Source: a virus
Strand: one strand, 5' to 3'
Virus record (IMG/VR): IMGVR_UViG_3300036945_000124
Coordinates: 1-34,291 of that record
Length of the DNA: 34,291 bases
Under the pieces are notes generated by a model. It was not told the origin of the DNA and made no database searches. It saw nothing but the letters and a program-made list of their open reading frames with translations. Numbering within the stretch: position 1 is the stretch's first letter; each line of letters opens with the position of its first letter. Of the stretch, positions 3,987 through 12,621 are shown in pieces. The translations under genes were made by a program, and so were the position numbers.

Positions 3987-4025
3987 ATGCAATACATTAT
4001 AACACTATAATTCTGTGTGTTGCAT
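3987..4025 (-). promoter_or_regulatory. Inverted repeat with consensus -10 box
   Basis: The arms ATGCAATACA (3987-3996) and TGTGTTGCAT (4016-4025) are complementary at 9 of 10 positions plus one wobble. Between them lies a second inverted repeat, ATTATA-ACAC-TATAAT (3996-4011). On the minus strand this gives a perfect TATAAT about 25 nt before the start at 3970, with no clear -35. It could be a promoter with operator for the exported-protein genes, or a weak terminator for the Mom-like gene that ends at 4025. The plus-strand sequence 3988-4005 closely resembles 6183-6200 in the divergent control region. Confidence 0.45.
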
Positions 4026-4639
4026 TAAATAAACAATAAATCTTGTGTTGCTACACTACCGCCAGAATCATATCTTTTGCTGTCACCTTTTGGATAAGGT
4101 TCTATTTTGTAATTTAATTTTGATTTAAGTATCTTCTTATCAGTCTTTGAACCATGAAATATTACATATCTGTGCTTTGCGCTTCTATCAACCCTTAATG
4201 ATGTATCACCAAAACTATGTCTGCTATGCTTACCATCAGCACCAGCCATATCTGTTCTTGCCTTTGTAGTGCCTGTAAACAGAAAGTTACACGCTTGATA
4301 CACATAACCAACATGACCTTGCGCTGTATCTGCGTAAGATACAATTATGCTTGGCTTTGGAAGTAGCTTAATTGAATTAGCTACAAGGTAACTAGATTCA
4401 TTCTTTGAGTTGTCTAACAAGCAAAGTCTATTTAGTTCTAACACAATTGATTTATATTCATCTCCACAAACTCCTCTGCATAATTGAGGACTAGCTGGCA
4501 TCCCATATGTAACTACACCACGCAATTCATTATCAACAAACAATCCATAAGCAAACATAATGTTTGGTAATCGTTTTGCATAATGTTTCTTTAGTAGCCA
4601 TTCGTGAGTTTCCTCTGGCTTGATTGGAATTACCTTCAT
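4025..4639 (-). CDS. Mom-like DNA adenine modification protein
   Basis: This 204-aa protein resembles the phage Mom family, GNAT-fold proteins that convert adenine in DNA to a methylcarbamoyl form and so block restriction. Visible blocks are GVVTYGMPASPQLCRGVCG (about residues 41-59), VLELNRLCLLD (about 66-76) and IVSYADTAQGHVGYVYQACNFLFTG (about 99-123). These match family members that lack the rest of the Mu mom operon. It is coupled by ATGA to the replication-initiator-like gene. Together with the phage Dam-family methyltransferase it suggests protection of phage DNA. The chemistry is inferred from the family. Confidence 0.8.
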   Translation of the reverse strand: MKVIPIKPEETHEWLLKKHYAKRLPNIMFAYGLFVDNELRGVVTYGMPASPQLCRGVCGDEYKSIVLELNRLCLLDNSKNESSYLVANSIKLLPKPSIIVSYADTAQGHVGYVYQACNFLFTGTTKARTDMAGADGKHSRHSFGDTSLRVDRSAKHRYVIFHGSKTDKKILKSKLNYKIEPYPKGDSKRYDSGGSVATQDLLFI

Positions 4640-10199: not shown

Positions 10200-10629
10200 T
10201 AATGTTCACTTTTCAAGCAAATCTGATTTGTGGGCTACTCCTCAAGACTTTTTTAATAAATATAATGACGTATATAATTTTGAAATTGATGTTTGTGCAA
10301 ATTTTCAAAATGCAAAATGCAAAATATATTTTGATATTGAACAAAATGGATTAAATCAAGAATGGATTGGAAGATGCTGGATGAATCCACCATATGGTCG
10401 AGATATTGGCAAATGGATGAAAAAAGCATACGAAAGCAGTTTGCTTGGCGCAGTAGTCGTTTGTTTAGTTCCATCAAGAACCGATACAAAATGGTGGCAT
10501 GACTACGCAATGAAAGGTAATATTGAATTTATTAAAGGCAGATTAAAATTTGGTGGGCATAATAATTCAGCACCATTTCCATCTGCTATAGTTGTTTTTA
10601 ATGGAGATAATAATGGCAACAACAAATAA
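10186..10629 (+). CDS. Phage Dam-family DNA N6-adenine methyltransferase
   Basis: This 147-aa protein matches the phage Dam family (PF05869 type): SDLWATPQDFFNKYN (about residues 13-27), FEIDVCANFQNAKC, the catalytic motif NPPYG (about 67-71), then VVCLVPSRTDTKWWHDY and FIKGRLKFGG. It would methylate adenine in phage or host DNA for restriction protection or timing. GGAG lies 5 nt before the start. It pairs functionally with the Mom-like protein on the other strand. The target site is unknown. Confidence 0.9.
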   Translation: MAGINNVHFSSKSDLWATPQDFFNKYNDVYNFEIDVCANFQNAKCKIYFDIEQNGLNQEWIGRCWMNPPYGRDIGKWMKKAYESSLLGAVVVCLVPSRTDTKWWHDYAMKGNIEFIKGRLKFGGHNNSAPFPSAIVVFNGDNNGNNK

Positions 10630-10906
10630 CATTACTGGGGATAGCCTTGTTAGCAAACTGGGTGACAAGGATCAGCAGGAGAAGTTTAACGCTAATTTTG
10701 ATGCTATCTTTGGAGTGAAGCCTAAGAAGGAAAAGTATGTACCACCAGCTATAATGAGTGATCCATTGTGTAAAATATGTGGAAAAGGTTTAGCAAGCAC
10801 TCAAGAATGTGCATGGACAGCATGCCCACTTAATTGGGATGAAAAACGTACTGATATAGTTGGGGCAAATGGGAATGATGGCTTGCATTATGAAGCTAAA
10901 GACTAA
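10613..10906 (+). CDS. Small protein with Cys zinc-finger motif, 97 aa
   Basis: The start at 10613 has GGAG with 6-nt spacing inside the end of the methyltransferase gene; earlier in-frame starts lack this. The N-terminus MATTNNITGDSLVSKLGDKD leads into a linker with VKPKKEKYVPP and then a probable zinc site CKICGKGLASTQECAWTACP. The role is unknown. It is the last substantial gene of the plus operon. Confidence 0.7.
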   Translation: MATTNNITGDSLVSKLGDKDQQEKFNANFDAIFGVKPKKEKYVPPAIMSDPLCKICGKGLASTQECAWTACPLNWDEKRTDIVGANGNDGLHYEAKD

Positions 10907-10994
10907 GCTATTCTTACTGCTTGTTACCGCACCAATATGGATATGGTTTGCTATACTTTGGCTGACAATACTTGATATATGGGATGCTAGATAG
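10890..10994 (+). CDS. 34-aa membrane microprotein
   Basis: The ATG at 10890 overlaps the end of the zinc-motif gene. The peptide starts MKLKTKLFLLLVTAPIWIW and stays hydrophobic (FAILWLTILDIW) before DAR and the stop, giving one or two short membrane segments with a positive N-terminus. The ribosome binding site is weak, but translation could be coupled. Its end lies in the hairpin shared with pqqA. No family is recognised. Confidence 0.45.
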   Translation: MKLKTKLFLLLVTAPIWIWFAILWLTILDIWDAR

Positions 10995-11022
10995 GGGATG
11001 GTTAATCCCCTGTTTGTCTAGC
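10986..11022. terminator. Hairpin at the convergent operon ends
   Basis: AGGGGAT (10993-10999) and ATCCCCT (11005-11011) form a perfect 7-bp stem with a 5-nt loop. An outer 6-bp stem, GCTAGA/TCTAGC (10986-10991 with 11017-11022), closes it. The stop codons of the plus-strand 34-aa gene and of minus-strand pqqA both lie in this structure. No T tract follows on either side, so it is a factor-dependent or weak bidirectional terminator, or a 3' end stabiliser. The position between converging transcripts fits. Confidence 0.65.
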
Positions 11023-11089
11023 GATTGCAAATATACATAGTTACTTCAAATCCAAATCTTAACTCAGTTGCAGTAGGTGATGTCCACAT
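11018..11089 (-). CDS. pqqA: PqqA, precursor peptide of pyrroloquinoline quinone (PQQ)
   Basis: This 23-residue peptide begins MWTSP and ends RFGFEVTMYICNR. Length, Trp2, Pro5, the FGFEVTMY core, Glu15 and Tyr19 and the final NR all match classical PqqA (for example the Klebsiella and Pseudomonas peptides). In the known pathway the radical-SAM enzyme PqqE, with PqqD as chaperone, cross-links Glu15 to Tyr19, and proteases plus PqqB and PqqC complete the cofactor. None of these enzymes is encoded here, so the host must supply them. AAGGA lies 7 nt before the ATG. The gene follows the late operon, after a hairpin at 11180-11207, and its stop is inside the hairpin at 10986-11022. An in-frame 51-codon version from 11173 lacks a ribosome binding site. 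It would raise PQQ supply for PQQ dehydrogenases such as methanol dehydrogenase (inference). Confidence 0.93.
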   Translation of the reverse strand: MWTSPTATELRFGFEVTMYICNR

Positions 11090-11179
11090 GATGTAGTCCT
11101 TAATATATAATAAGCAAAAGTGCTTGTATGTAATAATCTCACAAATGTTAGACACAAACATCAGCATTATCATGAAATA

Positions 11180-11220: not shown

Positions 11221-12621
11221 TTAATTACCAAGTAAACCTTCAACAGTTAATTCATTAAACGGAACATCCAATCCATATTTTTCTTTGTTATAAACATATG
11301 GAAAATATTTTAATCTTTCTTCTGGTGTTAAACTCATTCTATTTTGAGTTAATCTTGATTCAGCTTCACCACCAAGACGTTGGTATTGTTTAAATGCTTC
11401 ATCTCTAACGAATTGTGGATCTCGCAATTGTTGGTATCTTGGAACTATTTGCATCCGTTGTTCCATCAACATATCATAAGCATTTTTTTCATCTACTGTC
11501 ATTTTTGGAGATTTAGCAATTATTGACATTTGTTTATTTAATTCTGTAACTTGATTATATAATTGATCTTTTTCATCCAATAAACGATTTAACATTTCAT
11601 CTGTACTTCCACCGCGAGCAAAATTTTCTCTTTCTTGAATAGCGTGTTGAAGTTCATGAAGCGATGTTGATTTTCCACCCCAATTAGGATTTCCTTCAGC
11701 AGTTTTTTCTAATGCAGCTTTATATACAGATAATGAATCTGCATTTAAATCTTTAGATGGATAATATGCCCCATAATTACCCTGACCTTTATTTATTCCT
11801 TGATTTATAATAATTCTTTCCATATCTGGATATGCTTTGTATAACTCAGGGTATTCTACAACCAATGGTGCATAATTTCCAATCTCAGGTCTATCTAACA
11901 ATCCATAATTTTTATTTAATAAATTAAGGTTATTTTCCATTTCTTGTTTAAATGGTCTTTTTGCTTCAGTTAATTGTTTGGGAAACAAATCTTTTTGATT
12001 TTTTACTGGTGCAATAATTTGTTTAAGTTCCGCATTTCTTAATTTTATTTGATTTGCTTTTTCAACTAAATCTTGAGCAGTATTAAATTTTGCTGGCGCA
12101 TCATTAATTTCTTGACGTAACGAACCTTCAGCACCACGAACTGTACCTGTTTTTTCCCATATTTGTTCAGGACTTAATCCATCTTTTTCAAGTTTTATTG
12201 CAAGGTTAGCTTTTTCTTTATTCCATGCAGGAGATTTTTCTCCAATGAACATTGATAAAGTTTTACCACCTTGCATACCAGCAGTAGCACCTTTACTTAC
12301 TATCGGTGCTGTTTGACCAAGACCAAGAAGATTTAATCCAATATTATTAGCTTCTTGAACTCCTTGCACAGAGTTAGGATCAAACTCACCTCGCATTGCT
12401 CTTGCTGGTGCTGTATATGCTTGTTGCATACTTTTTATAAACTCTGGCATAGCAAAAGCCATCTGACCAGTTACTTTATTCTTTTGAATAGGCAATACCC
12501 CCCCAGTAACAATATTCTCTGGCGCATTTAACTTTTGCTCAATAGCGTTAGTAGATAAAACTCTATCAACAACGCTTTGCTTTCCAAGTATGCGATTAAG
12601 TTGTTCTTGTGTTAGTGCCAT
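11221..12621 (-). CDS. Putative virion-associated zinc metallopeptidase-like protein
   Basis: This 466-aa protein contains HELQH (residues 322-326), an HExxH zinc-protease motif, in the context TSLHELQHAIQERENFARGG. Downstream, YQRLGGEAESRLTQNRMSLT (about 413-432) carries Glu residues that could be the third ligand. This pair of blocks recurs in phage large polyvalent proteins that are ejected with the DNA. Residues 1-110 are polar and glycine- and alanine-containing; 180-240 are helical. It may help the phage genome cross the envelope or process a host protein early. It is the last large gene of the late operon and is visibly more AT-rich than its neighbours. Confidence 0.7.
   Translation of the reverse strand: MALTQEQLNRILGKQSVVDRVLSTNAIEQKLNAPENIVTGGVLPIQKNKVTGQMAFAMPEFIKSMQQAYTAPARAMRGEFDPNSVQGVQEANNIGLNLLGLGQTAPIVSKGATAGMQGGKTLSMFIGEKSPAWNKEKANLAIKLEKDGLSPEQIWEKTGTVRGAEGSLRQEINDAPAKFNTAQDLVEKANQIKLRNAELKQIIAPVKNQKDLFPKQLTEAKRPFKQEMENNLNLLNKNYGLLDRPEIGNYAPLVVEYPELYKAYPDMERIIINQGINKGQGNYGAYYPSKDLNADSLSVYKAALEKTAEGNPNWGGKSTSLHELQHAIQERENFARGGSTDEMLNRLLDEKDQLYNQVTELNKQMSIIAKSPKMTVDEKNAYDMLMEQRMQIVPRYQQLRDPQFVRDEAFKQYQRLGGEAESRLTQNRMSLTPEERLKYFPYVYNKEKYGLDVPFNELTVEGLLGN

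Follow-up and report, generated by a model that had tools for sequence, protein, structure and literature searches.

Virus-encoded PqqA, the precursor peptide of the cofactor PQQ, has been met before. The Lake Baikal virus VP_266, a virus of Methylophilaceae, was reported to encode PqqA, for which a boost of PQQ for methanol dehydrogenase was proposed (PMC7678222, 2020). In viral contigs from a reservoir, pqqA, pqqE and pqqD appear among the auxiliary genes and are framed, in the accessible part of that report, in terms of phosphate solubilisation (PMC13188868, 2026). Given these two reports, viral pqqA is already a known kind of gene. On the host side, a 2014 genome paper described 3-12 pqqA copies beside single copies of the other pqq genes (PMC4109929). 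A regulatory precedent comes from cyanophages, where pstS and related genes are read via the host PhoB and binding has been shown experimentally (PMC10976474 and work cited there); the same paper cautions against relying on predicted boxes alone. In the open-licence PubMed Central literature, we found neither the presence of pqqA in nearly all methylotroph phages examined, nor its presence in isolates, nor the shared PQQ box described below; a description of how PQQ synthesis is regulated in Methylophilaceae was likewise not found there.

The PQQ pathway itself (PqqD, PqqE, PqqB, PqqC and a peptidase) is established. PqqA has about 22-29 residues, and PqqE cross-links a Glu-x3-Tyr pair within it. 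One PqqA is destroyed for each PQQ made, so the precursor is the only part of the pathway that needs stoichiometric supply. In methylotrophs, carbon and energy enter the cell through the PQQ-dependent methanol dehydrogenase, and Methylophilaceae (OM43, Ca. Methylopumilus) rank among the main consumers of methanol in the coastal sea and in lakes.

A stand-alone PqqA gene and its surroundings

The window, by which we mean the whole stretch of 34,291 nucleotides analysed here, is an IMG/VR virus contig (IMGVR_UViG_3300036945_000124). It carries genes for a portal, TerL, a major head protein, a scaffold, a tail fibre and an endolysin, together with an HNH nuclease, an annealing protein, a single-strand binding protein and a Mom-like modification gene. 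It is a podovirus-like phage of 34 kb. Among isolates, the closest portal (53.5% identity) is that of Venkman, which infects the OM43 methylotroph H5P1. The Mom-like DNA modification protein is encoded at 4025-4639 on the minus strand (PHROG 1384, E 2e-55).

Does this phage encode PqqA? An earlier note on this DNA, made from the letters alone, had read a 23-codon minus-strand gene with its own AAGGA site in this way, and the coordinates, the peptide and the profile scores confirm the reading (Table 1). The gene runs from an ATG at 11089 to a TAG stop at 11020-11018 and translates to MWTSPTATELRFGFEVTMYICNR. This peptide passes both the Pfam family PF08042 (37.2 bits, E 2.8e-9; curated cut-off 21.1) and the equivalog TIGR02107 (37.0 bits, E 2.1e-9; NCBIfam cut-off 20). 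It is the sole PqqA match in the 34,291-bp record (E 1e-9), and no PqqA match was obtained in 14 control genomes. The classical residues to which the note had pointed, Trp2, Glu15, Tyr19 and the terminal Asn22-Arg23, are all present, and both the Glu-x3-Tyr spacing (Glu15/Tyr19) and the short length (23 residues) are those of a PqqA. Judged by its sequence, the gene is PqqA, a stand-alone substrate gene on a genuine phage.

The same note had held that the phage brings the substrate only, and this agrees with what we find. PqqE, the component searched for on the phages, is missing from all 55 phage records (the window and 54 others), so that the window holds no pqqABCDE operon, while the hosts have full PQQ genes, with PqqE full-length in LSUCC0665 and Ca. 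Methylopumilus. Methanol dehydrogenase is absent from the window and full-length in one of the 55 records. That record, IMGVR_UViG_3300025120_009955 (72,356 bp), is the only one with both PqqA and methanol dehydrogenase, the latter a full-length PQQ alcohol dehydrogenase at 34049-35731 (608 bits).

Table 1. Features at and around pqqA in the window
Feature	Position	Strand	Remark
Downstream neighbour, without assigned function	10592..10906	+	convergent to pqqA
Hairpin AGGGGAT-TAACC-ATCCCCT	10993..11011	-	directly 3' of pqqA stop
pqqA, PQQ precursor peptide gene, 23 codons	11018..11089	-	profile matches and purifying selection
Shine-Dalgarno AAGGA	11097..11101	-	7 nt ahead of pqqA ATG
Short inverted repeat AAGCACTTTTGCTT, putative 5' leader	11112..11125	-	
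Putative -10 GATTAT	11133..11138	-	4/6 to TATAAT, weak match; 39 nt after box start
PQQ box TTTCATGATAATGCTGATGT	11158..11177	-	rank 2 of 68,552 with host-trained matrix; rank 1 with viral matrix
LPD23 large polyvalent-protein fragment	11221..12621	-	last long gene of late block; upstream neighbour of pqqA

The gene lies where two convergent blocks of genes meet. Homologues of the downstream neighbour also border pqqA in related phages (L329-L332, L341, L342), and in P19250A a short match adjoins pqqA. The product of the upstream neighbour has 466 amino acids, an LPD23 domain and a HELQH motif, and looks like part of a large polyvalent protein. In one related phage contig (L336), an int-alpA RNA (RF02996) lies near pqqA at 1919-1983 on the plus strand; an Rfam scan of the window returned no known RNA.

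Spread, host and selection

How widespread is the gene among phages? With the consensus peptide, tblastn against the phage collection matched 12 records. Nine of them are isolate records of methylotroph phages (P19250A, Venkman, MEP301, MEP401, MEP402 and four Melnitz), and these span unlike groups, namely the 38-kb Venkman, the Zobellviridae MEP401/402 and the T4-like Melnitz. The other three are one spring-water podovirus contig and two records of Acinetobacter phage MD-2021a. We rejected the latter two as spurious; the one examined (CAKLQF020000010.1) has the genes ppk and pqqABCD and is apparently a piece of bacterial chromosome misfiled as phage. The Methylophilales phages MEP431-434, HIM624-A and Venkman EXVC038S, which are listed in the taxonomy, were not among the collection matches.

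None of the isolate records names the gene as pqqA, because it is too small for most gene callers, as the earlier note had expected. The smaller isolates have no annotated feature at the site; Melnitz and the spring contig have only a hypothetical protein there, on the opposite strand in the two regions examined. In the literature on MEP301, MEP401/402, Venkman and Melnitz, PQQ is mentioned as a medium component only.

In the viral collection, the peptide pattern GFEVTMY gave at least 120 contigs, and 120 of the 120 listed are PqqA. When the first codon was restricted to GGA, which accounts for about 10% of that sample, there were at least 119 viral matches. By a stricter filter, 106 of the 109 loci newly fetched with the GGA-restricted and alphaproteobacterial patterns are PqqA. 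Taken together, the GFEVTMY and GGA-restricted patterns place pqqA on at least 227 distinct IMG/VR contigs (120 plus 107 new), and extrapolation from the 10% GGA share suggests roughly 1,200 or more, assuming a random scan order. The alphaproteobacterial pattern GMEVTSYE, which covers one subtype only, found two viral contigs, one of which gave PqqA; the abundance of viral pqqA thus seems not to extend to every group that makes PQQ.

We also observed a second type of viral PqqA in seven loci (L004, L013, L018, L024, L028, L412 and L379), all without the PQQ box. It adjoins head or tail genes in L024 and L028, and L379 lies within a 339,794-bp contig, perhaps of a jumbo phage. The hosts of these viruses are probably not Methylophilaceae.

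For the window, the peptide type points to a host. Among the genome matches listed, the TE[ML]R-FGFEVTMY type occurs almost only in Methylophilaceae, and many phage peptides are letter-for-letter equal to host ones (that of P19250A, for example, to a Methylophilaceae peptide). From the peptide type and the related phages, the host is very probably a Methylophilaceae methylotroph, which fits the PQQ-using, methylotrophic host suggested earlier. As for the enzyme to be served, the suggestion had been methanol or glucose dehydrogenases; in Methylophilaceae the likely one is the former, not the latter. All 100 Methylophilaceae genomes sampled have pqqA, in 1-12 copies each, which agrees with PMC4109929, with pqqBCDE mostly single, and orphan pqqA copies are normal in the family.

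We scored conservation on HMM-found copies and not on the GFEVTMY matches, because that pattern selects on the peptide core. PqqA is present in all ten portal relatives of at least 34 kb and, with these included, in 15 of the 26 related-portal contigs of at least 13 kb. Among 15 distinct HMM-found phage copies, the differences at codon positions 1, 2 and 3 number 345, 298 and 830. Trp2, Pro5, Glu9, Arg11, Gly13, Glu15, Thr17 and Tyr19 are invariant, and residue 18 varies. Over the phage set pN/pS is 0.24; between the window and its relatives, pS ranges from 0.54 to 0.96 and pN from 0.10 to 0.36. With synonymous sites almost saturated, the peptide remains conserved, a sign of strong purifying selection. 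In addition, 215 of the 216 viral copies have a Shine-Dalgarno-like tetramer at the same position, compared with 5 of 211 in a control stretch. Conservation, purifying selection and the Shine-Dalgarno site across relatives together show that the reading frame is not a product of chance, and the synonymous pattern that the earlier note had proposed to look for in related phages is there. We class the gene as an auxiliary metabolic gene, in the sense of a host-type gene kept by selection on what its gene content identifies as a phage genome.

The PQQ box and other signals

The earlier reading, right about the peptide, had overlooked a host-type regulatory box upstream of it. We searched for motifs de novo in non-redundant upstream regions, separately for 166 viral and 118 host copies. 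The viral set gave the motif TTTAATGATTTTCCTTATG at about -90 and the host set TCATGAAATTCATTAG at about -130, with log-likelihoods above 800 (width 20) and 560 (width 14), compared with about 46 for mononucleotide-shuffled sequences (width 14). We name this motif the PQQ box. It is palindromic, resembles TCATGA-N3-TCATGA, and precedes both pqqA and pqqBCDE of Methylophilaceae. The two matrices recognize each other's regions: that from the host, trained on host pqqA promoters only, matches 53% of viral upstream regions (0.2% after dinucleotide shuffling), and the viral one matches 67% of host regions (1.4% after shuffling).

The box of the window is a moderate match (8.2 nats with the host matrix, 11.9 with the viral one). 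With the host matrix, the pqqA site ranks third in P19250A and second in both Venkman and MEP301; the score is poor in two of the 11 phages tested. Among the TE[ML]R-type viral upstream regions, 84 of 139 have the box. Of the remaining 27 viral regions eight score; six of these belong to the TDMR type, and one further peptide type has no scoring member.

In the host, the box precedes most pqq loci examined in Methylophilaceae. The strongest host-matrix sites in LSUCC0665, a complete OM43 genome, include those before pqqA loci and pqqB; the other sites of similar score that we examined lie inside or beside unrelated genes. Across 30 genomes, the box upstream of the pqqB operon is usually the best site of its locus. 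Six pqqB operons were scored as having no local pqqA and so form a check outside the training set; five of them are preceded by a box; one operon, for which the pqqA call differed between two runs, has none. The xoxF gene of the OM43 genome is also without a box (5.2 nats), so the motif is not a general methanol-gene motif in that genome. With its predicted box, the pqqA of the window shares the defining site of what we call the Methylophilaceae PQQ-box regulon.

Downstream of the box, 40 of the 119 viral promoters aligned have a TATAAT-like hexamer that begins exactly 39 nt from the motif start. This spacing is the commonest in phages and also that of the putative -10 in the window. Leader inverted repeats are also seen in relatives (L333-L341), close to the expected transcription start; their arm sequences differ between phages and the pairing is kept. 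The predicted fold of leader plus coding RNA is not unusual (z -1.5). We call the hairpin behind the stop codon only terminator-like because the minus strand has no T run there, and terminator prediction lists none at this hairpin. Terminator-like sites follow 83 of 164 viral pqqA genes, compared with 6% of shuffled sequences.

It could be argued that PqqA is functional and that the box is merely a remnant of the host region without a role in infection, the gene being read by late phage transcription. We find this unlikely. Such an origin would fit the place of pqqA at the end of the late block and on the same strand, as well as the differing strength of the box between phages. However, the box persists in unlike phages whose upstream DNA is otherwise unrelated, and it keeps its preferred distance to the -10. 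Moreover, pqqA in Venkman and MEP301 is opposite in strand to both neighbours and needs a promoter of its own.

Proposed role and relation to described systems

The explanation that we favor, and consider likely, is that this is a functional, host-derived pqqA, an auxiliary gene that would feed the host PqqBCDE and be read by the host PQQ regulator. The gene appears to be a small self-contained transcription unit of host box, promoter, Shine-Dalgarno site and coding region. During infection of a Methylophilaceae cell, the host regulator would read the upstream box and the 23-residue peptide would be made; host PqqD would present it to host PqqE, which would cross-link Glu15 and Tyr19, and the PqqB, PqqC and peptidase of the host would then complete PQQ. 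The extra PqqA might keep methanol dehydrogenase running while host genes are shut down. We infer from sequence that the gene is expressed, that host PqqD and PqqE process its product, that the host regulator binds the box and that the phage benefits. Counting against this explanation are the several pqqA copies that the hosts already own, so that PqqA may not limit PQQ during infection, the moderate box and weak -10 of the window, and the poor host-matrix score of two of the 11 phages tested. With less assurance, we lean towards a broader proposal, in which box, promoter and pqqA form a portable unit shared by unlike phages and turned on when the cell senses PQQ shortage; the box would then define an undescribed regulator.

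Might the peptide lower PQQ instead? It could act as a decoy, tying up PqqD/PqqE or the PQQ regulator and thereby slowing the host or blocking a PQQ-dependent defence, and a phage that brings only a substrate could indeed compete with a poor one. This seems to us quite improbable: an inhibitor would be expected to alter its reactive residues, but Glu15 and Tyr19, the two residues of the cross-link, stay constant while their neighbours vary, and many phage peptides are identical to those of the host. Still harder to credit is a functionless gene picked up by chance or found on host contigs misfiled as viral since, although IMG/VR contains fragments and one misfiled pqqABCD contig did turn up in the phage collection, pqqA occurs in completely sequenced phage isolates from culture and in each near-complete relative of the window, under strong purifying selection.

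If pqqA is indeed a functional auxiliary gene, the virus would keep the methanol engine of its host supplied during infection. Its presence in every cultured Methylophilales phage among the matches and in every near-complete relative suggests that PQQ supply repeatedly becomes limiting in infection. The shared box offers a direct handle on the regulation of PQQ synthesis in Methylophilaceae, and the idea can already be put to the test with laboratory phage-host pairs (OM43 strain H5P1 and its phages Venkman or Melnitz; P19250A).

In comparison with described systems, the window resembles VP_266 in that a Methylophilaceae virus encodes PqqA (PMC7678222). However, VP_266 was assigned to T4-like viruses with their own methanol dehydrogenase and was described in one population, whereas the window is podovirus-like, of 34 kb, and has neither methanol dehydrogenase nor PqqE; promoter and selection analyses do not figure in the accessible part of the VP_266 account. 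The viral contig IMGVR_UViG_3300025120_009955, with both genes, resembles that report. The reservoir study likewise lists pqqA as a viral auxiliary gene, its accessible text offering no analysis of sequence or mechanism (PMC13188868). The orphan pqqA genes of Methylophilaceae (PMC4109929, PMC9851590) encode the same peptide type, lie apart from pqqBCDE and have the same box as the phages. They differ in layout: on the chromosome, about 130 nt separate the box from the ATG, and a second half-site comes about 22 nt further on, while the phages have one box at about 90 nt. The cyanophage PhoB genes parallel the arrangement proposed for pqqA, in which a host-type DNA box brings a metabolic gene of the phage under a regulator of the host; they belong to another pathway, and binding of PhoB is experimental there, whereas the PQQ box here is a computed one.
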